The translations under genes were made by a program, and so were the position numbers. Positions 57,083-64,000 of a DNA stretch of 64,000 nucleotides are shown one piece after another (within the stretch, counting starts at the first letter, position 1; each line of letters starts with the position of its first letter). The notes beneath the pieces were generated by a model. The model was not told where the DNA came from. It ran no database searches and was given only the letters and a program-made list of their open reading frames with translations. Source of the DNA: Deltaproteobacteria bacterium (GTDB lineage: Bacteria > Desulfobacterota > SM23-61); the NCBI GenBank assembly GCA_016875165.1, contig VGSF01000004.1:1-64000 (forward strand). The letters are read 5' to 3'.

Positions 57083-59287
57083 ATGAGTCCTCCTTTCCGC
57101 ACTCCAGGGAAGAAAATCAGGTTTTTGGATATTCTTCTGGGATTGGGCCTAACCGTCTTCGTGGCCTTTCTTTTTTTTGTCCCTTTTAATTTTTTCGAAA
57201 CCGCCCATTGTAAGCTTTATGACCTTAGCTTAAAAATGCGGGGCTCCCTTACTCCTCTCCCAGGGTTGGCCATTGTGGCCATCGATGACGCCTCCCTGGC
57301 TAAGGTGGGCAGGTGGCCCTGGCCCCGGGGCAAAATCGCCGATTTGATTGATCGCCTGTCGGAAGCCGGGGCCGAGATAATCGCCGTGGATATTGTCTTC
57401 CTTGCGGGGCACGAAGAAAAAGCCGGCGGGAGCGATCAGTTGTTCGGAGAAGCGGCCCGCCGGGCTGGAAATGTCATTTTCCCTTTTTACTTTACCCTGG
57501 GAAAATCCAAGGAAGGAGCAACGAAAGCCGATATGGCCTCTCCCATCGCTGCTGCCTCCTTTTTATTATTCGATGACCCCAAGAAATTTATTGACTTTCC
57601 CCCTCCGCCAGCCAAAGAGATTTTTGCCCCCCCTCTGGAAATCGCTCAAGGGGCCAGAGCCCTTGGACACATAAATGTCCTTCCAGATAAGGACGGCAAG
57701 GCGCGCTGGGATCCATTGATCATTGAGTATGACGGGCATTACTACCCTTCCTTCAGCTTGCAAATCGCGGCCTCGGTCCTGAAGGTGTCAAGAGGGGACA
57801 TCACTGTTCGCGTAGGCCATTCCATCCGCTTAGGGAAGGAAAAAATTCCCACCAACACCCAGGGGATGATGCTCATTAATTATTATGGAGGCAATCAAAC
57901 TTTCCCTTACCATTCCGCTGCCGATGTCCTTGCCGGGAAATCCCCTGCTGGCACTTTTAAGGGGAAAATCGTTTTGGTGGGAGTTACTGCTGCCGGGACG
58001 TCCGCCGGAGCCCATGACCTTATGGCCACTCCCTTCTCTAACCAGTTTCCCGGCGTAGAAAAGCATGCCCATGAAGTCGCTTCCGTTCTCCAGGGCCGCT
58101 TTATTTCCCGTCCAACCTGGGTTTCTTTCGGGGAGTTTGGGCTGATCCTGGGGATCGGGCTTCTGCTCACTTTTTTATTGCCGAAGGTCCGGCCGATTTA
58201 TCAGCTCGCCGTCAGCCTTATCGTTCTTGGGGCGTTAGGCGGGTTGATGATCGCGGCCATTTTCCAGGGAACGTGGGTCAAAATCTTTTTTCCCGGCCTG
58301 CTGGTAATTCTCCAGTATGTCGCAGTTACGGCTCGCCCCGCTCCCCTGGCGCAAAAGGAAACGACTCGCGCAACTGATATAACGGGCATCGTCCAGGGCG
58401 AAGGTGAACTGTCTGCGGCGGCCAATGGGACGAGCCGTCCCGAAGTCCCTAGCTTAATGCAAAAAATTGGCAGATATGAAATCCTGGGAGAGCTTGGGCG
58501 TGGGGCGATGGGAGTGGTGTATAAAGGAAGGGATCCCATCATTGACCGCTTGGTGGCGATCAAAACCATTCGTTTCGACCGCTTCTATGAAGAACAAGAG
58601 ATTCAAAACCTGAAGGAACGATTTTTTAAAGAAGCCCAAGCTGCGGGCAAGCTTATCCACCCCAACATCGTCACGATCTTTGACGTGGGCGAAGACAAAG
58701 GCTTTTCTTTCATGGCCATGGAATACGTCGAAGGGGAGAGTCTCGCCAAATTTACGGCGCGAGACCGCCTGCTGCCTTCGGGAAAAGTTGTGACGTTAAT
58801 CATCGAAGCAGCCGAAGCCCTGGATTTTGCCCACCGTCGGGGGATCGTCCATCGCGATGTGAAACCTGCCAATATTATGCTCGCCCCCACAGGGCAAGTA
58901 AAGGTAATGGACTTCGGCATTGCCAAACTCCCCACTTCCACGCTCACCCAAACCGGGTCTATTCTGGGCACGCCGGCTTACATGTCGCCGGAACAAATCA
59001 ATGGCCAGGAGATTGACGGACGATCTGACCTTTTCTCCCTGGGCAGCGTTCTTTATGAACTTCTCACCGGGACAAAGCCCTTTAAAGGGGAGACGCTCTC
59101 TGCTTTATCTTATCAAATTACTCAGGGAACTCCCCTGCCGGTTTCGCGGCTGAATCCCGCCATTCCCCCATCTTGCGATGAGGTCCTTCTCCAGGCCCTG
59201 GCCAAGGCGCAGCAAGATCGTTTCCAGAGTGGAAAAGATATGGCCGAGGCCTTGAAAAAGATTGTTAAAAAAACAGGAAAAACTTAA
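57083..59287 (+). CDS. CHASE2-domain membrane Ser/Thr protein kinase
   Basis: A 734-residue sensor kinase. A first TM helix (about 14-34) precedes a periplasmic CHASE2 domain (about 40-345), followed by three TM helices (about 350-415) and a cytoplasmic Hanks-type kinase (about 465-730). The kinase has glycine loop LGRGAMGVVYKG, AIKTI lysine, HRDVKPANI catalytic loop (about 590), DFGIAK and SPEQ. All catalytic residues are present, so it should be active. A T6SS-like locus starts downstream, where PpkA-type kinases often act, making the ETxxxSP protein a candidate substrate. This is inference. Confidence 0.92.
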   Translation: MSPPFRTPGKKIRFLDILLGLGLTVFVAFLFFVPFNFFETAHCKLYDLSLKMRGSLTPLPGLAIVAIDDASLAKVGRWPWPRGKIADLIDRLSEAGAEIIAVDIVFLAGHEEKAGGSDQLFGEAARRAGNVIFPFYFTLGKSKEGATKADMASPIAAASFLLFDDPKKFIDFPPPPAKEIFAPPLEIAQGARALGHINVLPDKDGKARWDPLIIEYDGHYYPSFSLQIAASVLKVSRGDITVRVGHSIRLGKEKIPTNTQGMMLINYYGGNQTFPYHSAADVLAGKSPAGTFKGKIVLVGVTAAGTSAGAHDLMATPFSNQFPGVEKHAHEVASVLQGRFISRPTWVSFGEFGLILGIGLLLTFLLPKVRPIYQLAVSLIVLGALGGLMIAAIFQGTWVKIFFPGLLVILQYVAVTARPAPLAQKETTRATDITGIVQGEGELSAAANGTSRPEVPSLMQKIGRYEILGELGRGAMGVVYKGRDPIIDRLVAIKTIRFDRFYEEQEIQNLKERFFKEAQAAGKLIHPNIVTIFDVGEDKGFSFMAMEYVEGESLAKFTARDRLLPSGKVVTLIIEAAEALDFAHRRGIVHRDVKPANIMLAPTGQVKVMDFGIAKLPTSTLTQTGSILGTPAYMSPEQINGQEIDGRSDLFSLGSVLYELLTGTKPFKGETLSALSYQITQGTPLPVSRLNPAIPPSCDEVLLQALAKAQQDRFQSGKDMAEALKKIVKKTGKT

Positions 59288-59351
59288 CGGCGCCCTTATT
59301 TACTACCCTATTCCTATTTGACTTTTTAGGCTTAATTCAGTTATATTATTC

Positions 59352-59531
59352 GTAACAGTTTAGCCGTTTGAAAAGCTGTCAAACTCCCCTTTTCCAAAGG
59401 GGGAAAAGGCTGAATATTTTATCAAATTCCATTAAAAAACCTCTCCTCCCTTTGTAAAAGCCTGCCTGCGGTAGGCAGGGGAGGTCGGGAGGGATTTCTG
59501 GGAAGGCCTTTTCAAACCGCTAAATTGTTAC
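59352..59531. repeat. TIR2 element with a different core (AAAGGGGG type)
   Basis: GTAACAGTTTAGCCGTTTG at the left faces CAAACCGCTAAATTGTTAC at the right, the cleanest pair of TIR2 ends in the window. The core (AACTCCCCTTTTCCAAAGGGG ... CCTCTCCTCCCTTTGTAAAAG plus GCCTGCCTGCGGTAGGCAGG) is unrelated to the GGCCGGGGG core of the other TIR2 elements. Confidence 0.82.
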
Positions 59532-59540
59532 TATTATATG

Positions 59541-59671
59541 GAGCCTCTTGCAAAAGTATTTTTTTGTGGTTCGACAAGCTCACCACGAACGGAAAAACTA
59601 AATAATTTCAACCTAAGCCCGTTCACCCTGAGCCTGTCGAAGGGTAAATTACGGACTTTTGCAAGAAGCTC
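59541..59671. mobile_element. 131-bp MITE-like element, second apparently identical copy
   Basis: Sequence from GAGCCTCTTGCAAAAGT to TTTTGCAAGAAGCTC, apparently identical to 27926-28056 throughout its 131 bp. ATATG flanks both sides (59536-59540 and 59672-59676), a possible short target duplication. It starts ten bases after a TIR2 element ends. Confidence 0.85.
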
Positions 59672-59791
59672 ATATGGAGTCCAATAAAATGGTTGACATT
59701 AGAACCGTAGACAGAAGCCGATTGCCTTAGGCACATGGGGGGTAGTAGCTTGGATCATATGTAAACACATTTACTGGTTTGCATATATTCA

Positions 59792-59951
59792 AAATTGGGC
59801 TATCTCCTTGACTTCCCCACAAAGAGGCTATCTACATGATAATAAAGATTTTTTCTATATTTTGCTGTACATACATAAAAAATATCGAAAATATTATAAA
59901 ATCCAATATGTTATAGATAATTTGGGGGAGTCAAGGAGATAGCCCCAATTC
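59792..59951. mobile_element. 160-bp MITE-like element with 27-bp inverted ends
   Basis: AATTGGGCTATCTCCTTGAC at the left is mirrored by GTCAAGGAGATAGCCCCAATT at the right, continuing to about 27 bp with two differences. The centre is very A/T-rich with no ORF. It is a single copy in this window. Confidence 0.75.
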
Positions 59952-60041
59952 AAAATTCCAAACCGCCACAGTATCCAGCAGAAACCTTTATGGAGAAATT
60001 CCCAATTTAGGGGATGTGAACAGGACGGGGAGGATTTACAG

Positions 60042-62171
60042 GTGAACAATCATAGCCGTACCCCTTCTTTATGGACTTACCTGAATCCTGACCAGGGTAA
60101 TTTTAAATTAAAGATTTCCCTTACTACGAAAGACGTCGCAACTGTCGAAAAAACTTCTTTTCCTTTCCTTTTGTTAACCGACTCCGATCCTCTCGCCCAC
60201 TTACTGGAGGGAAAATTTATAACCGATGCCGGAAGCGAGATCAAGAAAGTATTTCTTTTGCTGCAAAGAGACCAATATTCCCTGACCAGGGATGACTTAT
60301 GGCCTCTGAACAACAAAGATATTAATTATTCCTGGCAAAAAGCCTTTTCTTTTCACGCCGCCCAAAAGGCAAATGGTTCTTTCATCATTCTTGGCCAAGT
60401 TGATCAAAAGGAAGGACTGCAACCCTTCCAATCGTTATTCTTTTGTAAAGTTAGGGAGCTTTATTTCCATCCGCTCTGTCCCCAATGCGGCCTTGAATTA
60501 CATGAATGCCAGGATGACGCCCTTCTCCTTCGCTCTGGACTCCAGGCCTATTCCGCCTCCTTGAAACGTTATCTTTTTTGCCCTTCCTGTTTTAGCGGGG
60601 GAAAAACTGATTTTTATGCCTCGGCTTTGGATAATTTCGACCCGCCCACGCTAAAAGACCGATTCACTTTAATTAAAGAATTTGGGAGGCTGGTGGAAAG
60701 GGGAAAACCTGCCAATCTATTTCCTTGCCTGGATTGCGCAAATCACCCGGATTGTTACGGACCAAATTTTTTAGCTCTTTTAAGAATCGTTCCCTTCTCT
60801 TTTTACCCCTTTTTCATGTTCATCTTCGAAGCTATGTCCTTAAGCGCCAAAGATTTTTTACCCATCCTCTCCGGCGCCACCTTTGAGGAAATCCAGACTA
60901 AGCTTGAAGCCGGGCGGGAATTAGGCAGGGAAAATTGCTTAAGGTCTCTTCAACAAGACTCGCTGACCAGGCCGGTTTACCTTTTCGACCGCACTGAACG
61001 GTATTTTCTGGAAGTTTTTTATTTGAAGCTCTCTTTTTTACACGAAGTTTTAAGAAGCCTCTTATCAGAAGGGGGCTTTTATGAAAACCCGCACCTGCGC
61101 TTCTCTCTGGAGCGCATCTGGGTAAAACTGGCTGCAGAAGGAAATTTGCTTCCTTCTTTCTGGAATTTTAAAATCCAGCTCATGGATATCCATAGAAACT
61201 GTAAGGAGACCCAACCCTTCCCTAAAATACCTCAAGCTGATGGTTTATATTTTCTAGGCCAACTCTGGTTTTACACTCTTTTAGTCAACAAGAAACAAAA
61301 TATCTCGGAGATTTATCCGGCCCTGGGCAAGGCCATAGATCGGGCTTTTTCCGGGGATTTGGCTTCTTTCGGGGAAGGTTCTCCGGCCTTTTATCCTGAA
61401 AATATTTTCTGGAATCCGCAAAGGCAGGCCGTAAGAAAAATTTACCTTCCTCTCTGGGAAAAGGCCCTGGGTTTGGGATGTTCCTTAATAAAATTTAGTC
61501 TGAAGCAAGACGGGCAATGGTCGCCAGAAATTTTTTTTCAACAATTAGAAGCCTTACGGGAAGAAGCCAAAGAAAACCTCTTCCGGGAAAGGCCGGGGAA
61601 AGAAGAAAAGGAATTTTTGCCGGAAAAGCAGGCCATTCATAAAATTTTAGAAAAGCTTCTTAGAAAATGGCAGATGGAAGTTGAACCAGCCCGGGAAGAA
61701 TTGATGGAAACGATCATCCTCGGCCCGGAAAAATACAAAAAAGATGCGCCTGCGCCTTCAATCCGGGAATGGCCAATAAAAGAGGAAGCCCCGGAGACAG
61801 TGATGATCTCTCCCGGGGGCATTCCCAAAATGGCCCCGGCAGCTCCCTGCCAGGAAAGGAAAGAGCCAGAAGATATTTCCGAGACCGTAATTATTTCCCC
61901 TTCCCAGGCCAAAGGCCAAGAGGAGCCTCTTGAAACCATTATCGTCTCTCCCGCCAAAGCCCCTGCGGGAGTTGGCCGGGTTTCAACGGCATTCCCGCCG
62001 GAAGACGCAAGCGTCTTAGGCGGAAAAGTTCCTGCCCTGGATGTTGAAAAAGCTGTTTCTTATAAGAAACAAAGCGAAGAACCTAAGGAAGAGGATTTTC
62101 TATCCGAGACTGTGATCCTTAGTCCCAAAGAGGTTCGAGAGAAAAAAGAAAAACATGGGAGCAAAAGATAA
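60042..62171 (+). CDS. T6SS-locus Cys-rich protein with five ETxxxSP-like motifs
   Basis: A 709-residue protein I cannot assign to a family. The N-half has cysteine pairs that could bind zinc (CPQCGLELHEC near 146, CPSC near 186, CLDCANHPDC near 228). After about residue 540 the chain is Lys/Glu/Pro-rich and bears METIILGP, PETVMISP, SETVIISP, LETIIVSP and SETVILSP, with the threonine near residues 557, 586, 615, 632 and 690. In each the +3 residue is I, V or L, as in FHA-binding pThr-x-x-(I/V/L) sites. GTG start behind GGGGAGG. It lies between a Ser/Thr kinase and a TagH-like protein. No signal peptide or TM helix. Confidence 0.65.
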   Translation: MNNHSRTPSLWTYLNPDQGNFKLKISLTTKDVATVEKTSFPFLLLTDSDPLAHLLEGKFITDAGSEIKKVFLLLQRDQYSLTRDDLWPLNNKDINYSWQKAFSFHAAQKANGSFIILGQVDQKEGLQPFQSLFFCKVRELYFHPLCPQCGLELHECQDDALLLRSGLQAYSASLKRYLFCPSCFSGGKTDFYASALDNFDPPTLKDRFTLIKEFGRLVERGKPANLFPCLDCANHPDCYGPNFLALLRIVPFSFYPFFMFIFEAMSLSAKDFLPILSGATFEEIQTKLEAGRELGRENCLRSLQQDSLTRPVYLFDRTERYFLEVFYLKLSFLHEVLRSLLSEGGFYENPHLRFSLERIWVKLAAEGNLLPSFWNFKIQLMDIHRNCKETQPFPKIPQADGLYFLGQLWFYTLLVNKKQNISEIYPALGKAIDRAFSGDLASFGEGSPAFYPENIFWNPQRQAVRKIYLPLWEKALGLGCSLIKFSLKQDGQWSPEIFFQQLEALREEAKENLFRERPGKEEKEFLPEKQAIHKILEKLLRKWQMEVEPAREELMETIILGPEKYKKDAPAPSIREWPIKEEAPETVMISPGGIPKMAPAAPCQERKEPEDISETVIISPSQAKGQEEPLETIIVSPAKAPAGVGRVSTAFPPEDASVLGGKVPALDVEKAVSYKKQSEEPKEEDFLSETVILSPKEVREKKEKHGSKR

Positions 62172-62916
62172 TTCCATGGAGAAATTAGCCGCCGAAATCA
62201 GGACGGTTTATGAAGCAGATTCTGAGCAATCGGAAGTTATCATCGAAACCTTCCTGAAAAAGAAATGGAAAGACTACCCTCATCTGGAGCGGTTAAACCT
62301 TCTCCAGAAACTTAGCAAGCAATTTGAGGTTTCCGCATCAGGCCATGCCCCGCAAGGGACCGGAGCAGGGGAGACTGCGCGCCTGCTCTCCTTGCTTTTA
62401 GGGAAAAGAGTCTCCATGCTCGACCTCTCCTCCGAAGAATTTTTGGAAAAGTTGGCCCGTTCCTTGAATACCGTCTTTGACACCTTAAACCAGATCATTG
62501 GCGTGATCCATTCTACCCTTTGGGGCAAGCAGGCCCAGATGGAAACGATCCGCTTGATCCTTGGCTCTAACCTGGAAGGAAAAGGGCAGGCGGACTCTTT
62601 GCAAAATTATCTCGATCAGATTAAAGATGCCTTTTTAGTCTCCCACCGGGCTTTTCGTCTTGCCGCCCATACCAAAGTTGGGGAAGTATTGAAAGAAATA
62701 GATCCGAAGCGGATTGCCGCCGAGGCCGAGGGGGGGCTGGAGTTTGGCCCCTTGCGCAAGGCCAAGCTTTTCGACATTTATAAAGAAAAATTCCTGAAGT
62801 GCAAAAGCTGGCACGAATCAGGCCGTTTTTTGGAGGACCTCTTAAGAGAATTTGAGAAAGATTGTCAAAAATTATATATGGCAGTCCAGAGAGGTGAACA
62901 TGAAAAAATTTCTTGA
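62155..62916 (+). CDS. TagH/Fha C-terminal-domain-like T6SS protein lacking FHA
   Basis: A 253-residue protein that resembles the C-terminal domain of T6SS FHA proteins (TagH/Fha). Similar features are a helix run RLILGSNLEGKGQADSLQ near 135, a central DAFLVSHRAFRLAAHTKVGEVLKEIDPKRI, and KLFDIYKEKFL near 206 before the end. The N-terminal FHA domain of TagH is not present. It overlaps the upstream gene by 17 bp and the TssJ gene by 17 bp, so all are co-translated. The family call is by pattern only. Confidence 0.5.
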   Translation: MGAKDNSMEKLAAEIRTVYEADSEQSEVIIETFLKKKWKDYPHLERLNLLQKLSKQFEVSASGHAPQGTGAGETARLLSLLLGKRVSMLDLSSEEFLEKLARSLNTVFDTLNQIIGVIHSTLWGKQAQMETIRLILGSNLEGKGQADSLQNYLDQIKDAFLVSHRAFRLAAHTKVGEVLKEIDPKRIAAEAEGGLEFGPLRKAKLFDIYKEKFLKCKSWHESGRFLEDLLREFEKDCQKLYMAVQRGEHEKIS

Positions 62917-63454
62917 AAAGTTTTTTCTTTTGTGCTTTTTATTACTGATTGTTTGCTGCGCTTCCAAACCGGCGATTTTGCCAACGCCGGAATGGCGTTA
63001 TGAAAAAGACGCCATCAGGCTGCAGATGAAAAGTGATCCCAAGTTAAATCTTTTCGACGGCAGCCCCCACACCCTTCTTGTCTGCGTCTATCAACTGGGG
63101 GACCCCAACGCCTTTAATCAGCTGAAGGAAGAAAAAGAAGGGCTGACCAAACTTTTGGAGTGCGGCCGCTTTGACCCGGCAGTGGTCAGTTCAAAGAGAT
63201 TGGTGGTTCAGCCCGGGCAGGATGCGACTCTGTTATTAGACCGGGCGGAGAACGCCAAATACGTAGGGATTGTCGCCGGCTATTACCTCCTCCAAAAAGA
63301 TCGGGTAATCCGGCTGCAGCAGATTCCTGTTCTGGAAGAAGTAACCGGCTGGCTTAGTAAAACGAGAACGGTCAAACCGGGAACGCTCAACATGGAGCTT
63401 TATCTGGGCCCGCAAGAAATTTTAGGCGTCAAAGGGGAAATAAAGGGAAAATAA
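62900..63454 (+). CDS. tssJ: Type VI secretion lipoprotein TssJ
   Basis: Outer-membrane lipoprotein of the T6SS membrane complex (TssJLM). The 184-residue protein has a basic, hydrophobic leader (MKKFLEKFFLLC, then LLLIVCCASKP), with a lipid-acceptor Cys near 20-21; the lipobox is unusual because V or C precedes the Cys. The mature part has LNLFDGSPHTLLVCVYQLGD near 50, typical of TssJ, and PGTLNMELYLGP near the end. ATG 62900 follows GAGAGGTG. Its stop overlaps the tssK start by one base. Confidence 0.85.
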   Translation: MKKFLEKFFLLCFLLLIVCCASKPAILPTPEWRYEKDAIRLQMKSDPKLNLFDGSPHTLLVCVYQLGDPNAFNQLKEEKEGLTKLLECGRFDPAVVSSKRLVVQPGQDATLLLDRAENAKYVGIVAGYYLLQKDRVIRLQQIPVLEEVTGWLSKTRTVKPGTLNMELYLGPQEILGVKGEIKGK

Positions 63455-64000
63455 TGGATATCCAAAGACCTCTGTTTTGGCATCAAGGCCTGTTTTTACA
63501 GCCGCAACACTTTCAGTTGCTTGAGTTGTCTTTTCAATCCCTTCTGACCCCTTTTTATGATTTTCTCCAGCCCCATTTTTGGGGGGTGGGGGCGTCGGAA
63601 ATCCAGAAGGGAGCATTGGCCAACCGCGCCTTCAATCCTCTGCGGGGTGAATTTTTATTCACCGATGGGACTTATGCGGTCTTGCCCGGCAACGCCCTCA
63701 TTGAAGCCCGCTCTTTTAACGAAGCCTGGGTGGAAGGAGGGAAGCCTTTTACCGTCTATATCGGTCTTAAAAAATTTACGCAAACCGGGGAAAACGTAAC
63801 GATCCTCCCCAAATTTGAAAATATTGCGGAAGTGCCCACCCGTTTCGTCGCCATTGCTGATCCGGACGAGGTGAAGGACCTGCATGCCGGCGGGCCCGAG
63901 GGCCGGGTGAAAAGGCTTTATTACGCCCTCAAAATATTCTGGGAGACCGAATCGGCTCAATTGGGTGATTATGTACTGATTCCCTTCGCTCAACTGGAAA
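63454..64000 (+). CDS. tssK: Type VI secretion baseplate protein TssK (5' part)
   Basis: The frame starts ATG 63454 and is still open at the window end (182 residues visible of about 440 expected). The N-terminus MDIQRPLFWHQGLFLQPQHF is diagnostic of TssK, which links the baseplate to the TssJLM complex. RLYYALKIFWETE appears near 150. It is a truncated view, not a broken gene. Together with tssJ it shows that a T6SS locus continues to the right. Confidence 0.9.
   Translation, partial: MDIQRPLFWHQGLFLQPQHFQLLELSFQSLLTPFYDFLQPHFWGVGASEIQKGALANRAFNPLRGEFLFTDGTYAVLPGNALIEARSFNEAWVEGGKPFTVYIGLKKFTQTGENVTILPKFENIAEVPTRFVAIADPDEVKDLHAGGPEGRVKRLYYALKIFWETESAQLGDYVLIPFAQLE

Follow-up and report, generated by a model that had tools for sequence, protein, structure and literature searches.

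A putative threonine-phosphorylation switch for type VI secretion with Fha/TagH split in trans

How a phosphothreonine (pThr)/FHA switch starts the assembly of a type VI secretion system (T6SS) is still disputed: different reports name Fha, the kinase or TssL as the phosphorylated partner, and condensates have been proposed. In A. tumefaciens, Fha binds the TssL peptide DLPpTVVEI, but not its unphosphorylated form (PMC3953482). In the TssW-PpkA-Fha axis of A. citrulli, the kinase and Fha form condensates (PMC12607579). FHA ligands are selected at the +3 position, as in Bdellovibrio DgcB (PMC6733907). The locus described here resembles the PpkA-PppA-Fha1/TagH pathway of the P. aeruginosa H1-T6SS and its relatives, because a Ser/Thr kinase, a PP2C phosphatase, an FHA reader, a TagH C-domain homologue and TagF occur in both, all linked to a T6SS. 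We propose that it is nevertheless arranged differently, with the FHA domain, its putative ligand and the TagH C-domain on three separate proteins. In the literature that we searched, which was incomplete, neither a split system nor a scaffold of this kind was described, and no paper joined Desulfobacterota, type VI secretion and the FHA domain.

The locus and its gene order

We analysed a stretch of 64,000 nucleotides, called the window below, that comprises positions 1-64,000 of the forward strand of contig VGSF01000004.1 from a Deltaproteobacteria bacterium (Desulfobacterota; SM23-61; assembly GCA_016875165.1). The features that concern us are as follows.

57083-59287, + strand: CHASE2-Ser/Thr kinase gene (Pfam CHASE2 and Pkinase), the candidate kinase for the scaffold tail
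60042-62171, + strand: scaffold gene, 709 aa, with a folded N-domain, a helix and a disordered tail with five pThr-type motifs
60042-61619, + strand: N-domain of the scaffold, residues 1-526 (invariant Cys, AF2 model, Foldseek)
61620-61694, + strand: helix, residues 527-551 (AIxxILxKIxxKW; DSSP), kept even in tail-only homologues
61707-61727, + strand: motif 1, ETIILGP, T557
61794-61814, + strand: motif 2, ETVMISP, T586
61881-61901, + strand: motif 3, ETVIISP, T615
61932-61952, + strand: motif 4, ETIIVSP, T632
62106-62126, + strand: motif 5, ETVILSP, T690
62155-62916, + strand: gene for an FHA-less TagH/Fha C-domain homologue (TagH-C), 253 aa, all-helical
62900-63454, + strand: tssJ lipoprotein gene (PF12790, TIGR03352)
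63454-64000, + strand: tssK, of which only the 5' part lies in the window (PF05936)

The scaffold ORF has a GTG start preceded by GGGGAGG, and the start of the TagH-C gene overlaps its end. Beyond the window, the same contig (G000:C4, 110.6 kb) encodes TssL, which is DotU in this cluster, followed by TssM, TagF, ImpE/TagJ, TssA, TssB, TssC, TssE, TssF, ClpV and VgrG. The T6SS components present are therefore the TssJ-L-M membrane complex, TssK, TssA/B/C/E/F, ClpV and VgrG. Two genes near VgrG encode candidate T6SS cargo, namely a Peptidase C70-like protein (L006:5924-6382; G000:C4 ~82.9 kb) and a full protein-arginine deiminase with PAD and PAD_M domains (L006:12303-14288; G000:C4 ~89.3-91.3 kb).

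The gap between the kinase and scaffold genes (59288-60041) carries an insertion of ~600 bp relative to the sister genome G003, in which the gap is 155 nt. The insertion is built from short repetitive elements that contain inverted repeats, and one unit of ~133 bp occurs in ~40 copies in the genome. It is possible that the insertion uncouples transcription of the kinase and the scaffold here.

The repeated threonine motif and the scaffold that carries it

The tail of the 709-aa protein contains five heptamers of the form ET[IV][IM][ILV][SG]P, with threonines at residues 557, 586, 615, 632 and 690 (codons at 61710, 61797, 61884, 61935 and 62109) and intervals of 29, 29, 17 and 58 residues. When the 169-aa tail was shuffled 20,000 times, the heptamer occurred 0.0001 times on average and never more than once. 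A peptide of this motif type is DDFLSETVILSPK.

Scaffold orthologues were found in G003 (91%) and G010 (41%), and in G014 a 126-aa protein made of the helix and tail only stands at the scaffold's place. A scan of 84,980 species for loci with a TagH-C-like neighbour returned 55 loci from Desulfobacterota, Nitrospirota and Candidatus Brocadia. Forty-nine were usable. ORF calls that were misassigned or missing (L056, L059, L066 and L163) were excluded from the counts. Directly 5' of TagH-C, 48 of the 49 loci have a gene whose product has a disordered C-terminal tail bearing T[VI][VIM][ILV] one or more times; in 43 loci the tail bears it at least twice. The last 220 residues of these 49 tails hold 146 copies, compared with 2.1 expected by shuffling, and the density in the tails is 67-fold that of the N-terminal part. 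The consensus is acidic at -6 to -4, L/I/M at -3 and E/K/Q at -1, followed by T, V(I), I(V), L/I, S and P (+5). Some degenerate copies lack the hydrophobic residue at +3 (EATRIETP, AATLIETP). At the motif position itself, threonine occurs in 146 cases and serine in none, with alanine, valine and tyrosine found once each. Judged from sequence alone, threonine without replacement by serine is what would be expected of pThr-specific FHA recognition.

The number of copies ranges from 1 to 8 per scaffold, and copies and linkers vary freely among homologues. In 40 of 48 homologues, a final motif is kept 6-21 residues before the C-terminus. The two claims of the initial annotation that concern the tail were borne out. 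Its five motifs held exactly, with their positions and spacing, on recounting and shuffling. Its premise that the threonines should be conserved among homologues held for the motif as a class in ~50 genomes, whereas number and spacing vary.

The motif appears to be particular to the scaffold, where its density is 4.4 per 1000 aa versus 0-0.6 in other T6SS genes. It is practically absent from the remaining T6SS and TPP genes, the PP2C signature apart: the TssL proteins of the split system have none (0 in 48), dFHA (the FHA reader described below) has none, and the kinases have one single copy only. The match in PP2C (DNITVVL; DNxTVVL) was rejected as a docking site, as it is the enzyme's own core signature.

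Five genomes (L011, L028, L030, L034 and L080) lack the N-domain of ~520 aa and keep the helix and tail, in proteins of 124-164 aa. The helix and tail, rather than all 709 residues, make up the minimal conserved scaffold. Where the N-domain is present, nine of its cysteines (135, 146, 149, 156, 180, 183, 229, 232 and 238) are invariant in 37 homologues; in the AlphaFold (AF2) model (pLDDT 82.9, pTM 0.83) they fit a predicted zinc-ribbon-like insertion. A search of the 709-aa protein with Pfam and NCBIfam gave Ku_C alone, at chance level, and the N-domain has no sequence relative in Pfam or the PDB. Protein kinases top the Foldseek ranks for the N-domain, the best at only E 0.05 and probability 0.47. 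No kinase match was obtained by hhalign, and no Pfam kinase was found in the 37 members. A degenerate kinase-like (pseudokinase) fold is therefore a possibility that profiles do not support, and we treat it as a weak lead rather than a result.

The split TagH, the kinases and the FHA reader

The 253-aa protein scores 17.6 bits against PF20232 (T6SS_FHA_C), under the curated cut-off of 23.7, and PF20232 is matched by 41 of 47 members of its family. In hhalign, the TagH-C family matched classical fused TagH with a probability of 83 (E 1e-6), whereas unrelated non-TagH controls reached at most 0.2. A fold search with the TagH-C model gave no match. No FHA domain is present in the 253-aa protein, and PF20232 is absent from dFHA. 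Because of the family matches to PF20232 and the profile match to fused TagH, we conclude that the 253-aa family is a remote homologue of the TagH C-domain and that TagH is genuinely split here.

The CHASE2 kinase scores 211 and 176 bits for CHASE2 and Pkinase, respectively, and has all of the catalytic motifs (GRGAMGVVYKG, VAIK, HRDVKPAN, DFG and SPE). We infer from these motifs that it is catalytically complete. In this genus, as in L032, L035, L038, L045, L047, L071 and L078, the gene directly 5' of the scaffold gene encodes a kinase. Since most genomes have no kinase gene directly next to the scaffold gene, the identity of the responsible kinase is uncertain. One family of ~550-aa kinases lies next to the scaffold in some genomes and next to the PP2C of the dFHA locus in others. 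Its members (L143, L144, L147, L149, L137, L032, L035, L047 and L078) have an N-terminal membrane sensor domain, which is sCache-like in L143.

There is no FHA domain in the T6SS stretch of the contig, and every FHA match of the genome is on other contigs. The genome encodes two double-FHA proteins, one of which, on contig C54, belongs to the T6SS-associated family that we call dFHA. The other, paired with a PP2C (L023:8551-10087; G000:C41), lies outside this family. In the 23 dFHAs, the pThr-contact residues of FHA1 (R34, S50, R51, H53, N71 and T73) are invariant, and FHA2 is degenerate, its pThr-contact residues being gone. The dFHA locus on C54 is conserved and includes a divergent PP2C, a trypsin-like protease, a PEGA kinase, a TPR protein and a CsgG-like lipoprotein; in most genomes, the PP2C and dFHA genes point away from each other. 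A gene for a fusion of VipA and VipB sheath domains comes next after dFHA in 8 of 23 genomes, and a ninth case, that of this genome, is cut by the contig end. The fusion-like gene directly after dFHA is found at L025:10618-12183, with similar genes in L132, L134, L135, L136, L141, L148 and L150. Such a partner could possibly connect the FHA adaptor to the sheath or baseplate. The contig that contains the window encodes a second VipA-VipB fusion protein in its T6SS effector region (L006:4337-5911; G000:C4 ~81.3-82.9 kb).

Points against the reading proposed below are that the dFHA of this genome is on a different contig, and that the genome bin is 7% contaminated. The distance between the dFHA and scaffold genes is ~5 kb in two relatives (L138 and L146) and 25-55 kb, on a single contig, in at least seven more. 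In L080, the scaffold gene has the protease, kinase, TPR and CsgG genes as neighbours. We found TagH-C in 19 of 297 genomes of the phylum and dFHA (called at E at most 1e-30) in 17, all of them within the 19 (Fisher 9e-26). Among the 31 T6SS genomes, marked by TssK, none of the 12 without TagH-C has dFHA (Fisher 6e-7). The genomes are not independent, though they span eight families. The two TagH-C genomes in which full-length dFHA is not recognisable are G003 and G279, of which at least G003 is a fragmented bin. A full-length dFHA is also present in 22 of 25 scaffold genomes that were reached independently, including Brocadia and a Thermodesulfovibrionia genome, and is not recognisable in the other three (G043, G044 and G049).

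Three of the 12 T6SS genomes without TagH-C (G164, G168 and G187) encode the classical fused FHA-TagH. In all three, TssL has an N-terminal extension, containing ATRTVIRPNPG in two and STVFDFSP in the third, whereas the TssL of the split system lacks one. In two genomes (G031 and G173), TssK is closely similar to the one studied here, yet scaffold, TagH-C and dFHA are all missing. Thus, the three are gained or lost together. In a mirror-tree comparison, the distances of dFHA and TagH-C correlated with rho 0.71, no better than with TssK, and this therefore gives no extra evidence for direct contact.

The initial annotation had placed an active-looking CHASE2 kinase upstream of the scaffold and a TagH C-terminus-like protein without FHA downstream. 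The latter held, on family profiles and the absence of an FHA domain; the former held by motifs, but the adjacent kinase is not always CHASE2. It had also taken the lack of an FHA protein in the locus as grounds for refutation. None is present in the T6SS cluster here, and a second locus of the same genome has one; the result is close to favourable, given the almost perfect co-occurrence of dFHA with the FHA-less TagH in the 297 genomes. Its broader suggestion of rearranged T6SS parts, with phospho-sites on a separate multivalent scaffold, is supported as to arrangement, while phosphorylation and binding remain inferred.

A proposed switch and its relation to known systems

We believe that these genes are likely to encode a T6SS threonine-phosphorylation switch with Fha/TagH split in trans. 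The motifs, their conservation, the co-occurrence, the gene order, the intact FHA1 and kinase residues and the TagH C-domain homology are seen directly; phosphorylation, binding by FHA1 and the effect on the T6SS are inferred. In our model, the repeated [DE]xxT-V-I-L threonines in the disordered scaffold tail would be phosphorylated by a Ser/Thr kinase in the membrane, of the CHASE2 type here and of PEGA or sensor-domain types in other genomes. The scaffold gene stands together with that of the FHA-less TagH C-domain. FHA1 of the separately encoded dFHA would then bind the pThr sites, perhaps more than one at a time. In this way the adaptor, perhaps with its VipA/VipB-like partner, would be brought to the T6SS membrane complex and the TagH C-domain. 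Recruitment of the adaptor may license T6SS assembly, and the PP2C phosphatase would reset the switch.

A bolder reading is that the scaffold is a multivalent pThr platform with up to eight FHA sites per chain and a zinc-ribbon-bearing, possibly pseudokinase N-domain. It would act in trans with an adaptor that has one active FHA, as a counting or condensate-forming T6SS switch that evolved beside or before the fused Fha/TagH. We put this forward tentatively and would not, on balance, bet on it.

Other explanations can be considered. The motifs might be unphosphorylated beta-strand docking peptides for a T6SS component (the TagH C-domain, a chaperone or the sheath), with the threonine structural and dFHA regulating something else in the same pathway. 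The VI[LI] core at +1 to +3 does resemble a beta-augmentation peptide, and the affinity of FHA for pTssL in A. tumefaciens, by ITC, is only 0.5-1.6 mM (PMC3953482). However, serine never and valine almost never replaces the threonine, though valine would fit a plain beta peptide, the motif and an FHA1 with an invariant pThr pocket co-occur almost exactly, and kinase and PP2C genes are neighbours. We consider this explanation unlikely. Less likely still is a purely classical TPP, in which dFHA binds a phosphorylated kinase or TssL and the tail has no scaffold role but serves as a kinase substrate or as a decoy. In its favour, the known phosphorylated partners are PpkA, Fha and TssL pThr14 (PMC12607579, PMC3953482), and the dFHA locus has many kinases. 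Against it, the motif is enriched in the scaffold, absent from TssL and dFHA and present as a single copy among the kinases, and TssL here has no N-terminal extension.

It is also conceivable that the motifs are a functionless, low-complexity repeat expansion, coincidental and confined to one lineage. The recurrent spacings of 24-31 and 58-59 residues are what tandem duplication of linkers could leave. But although the linkers differ, the motifs persist throughout Desulfobacterota, Nitrospirota and Brocadia, and the tail stays where the 520-aa N-domain is missing. This explanation is all but excluded.

If the proposed split switch is correct, the reader, the ligand and the TagH C-domain are three proteins and the ligand is a repeated 7-residue peptide, so that the steps could be tested separately with synthetic peptides. 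The motif would also provide an FHA ligand that can be read from sequence in the T6SSs of Desulfobacterota, Nitrospirota and Brocadia; our sample includes ethane- and ANME-associated sulfate reducers (Eth-SRB).

Several described systems share parts of this arrangement. The A. tumefaciens PpkA-TssL pThr14-Fha pathway is close in its ligand, as DLPpTVVEI resembles the DxLxETVIxx motif found here and recognition is pThr-specific; there, however, a single site lies on the TssL N-terminus, whereas here 1 to 8 lie on a separate scaffold (PMC3953482). In the A. citrulli axis, as proposed here, kinase and Fha organise T6SS assembly, but no multi-site pThr scaffold has been described and Fha is itself the phosphorylated partner (PMC12607579). 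By analogy, a multi-site scaffold would favour condensates such as those formed by the A. citrulli kinase and Fha. In GarA/OdhI and Bdellovibrio DgcB, too, an FHA domain reads the +3 residue of a short Thr motif; in these cases motif and FHA are in one protein (intramolecular or self), whereas here they would act in trans and the motif is multivalent (PMC6733907). Compared with the P. aeruginosa-type TPP, the FHA and the TagH C-domain are encoded by two genes that are usually unlinked, the putative phospho-sites are on an extra scaffold that was not seen in the classical clusters examined, and the kinases are CHASE2, PEGA or sensor-domain types. Because the FHA and TagH-C are separate, no single protein here fits the Fha/TagH family. 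Membership of that family thus fails for each of them, whereas the claim that the system works like a TPP is strong.
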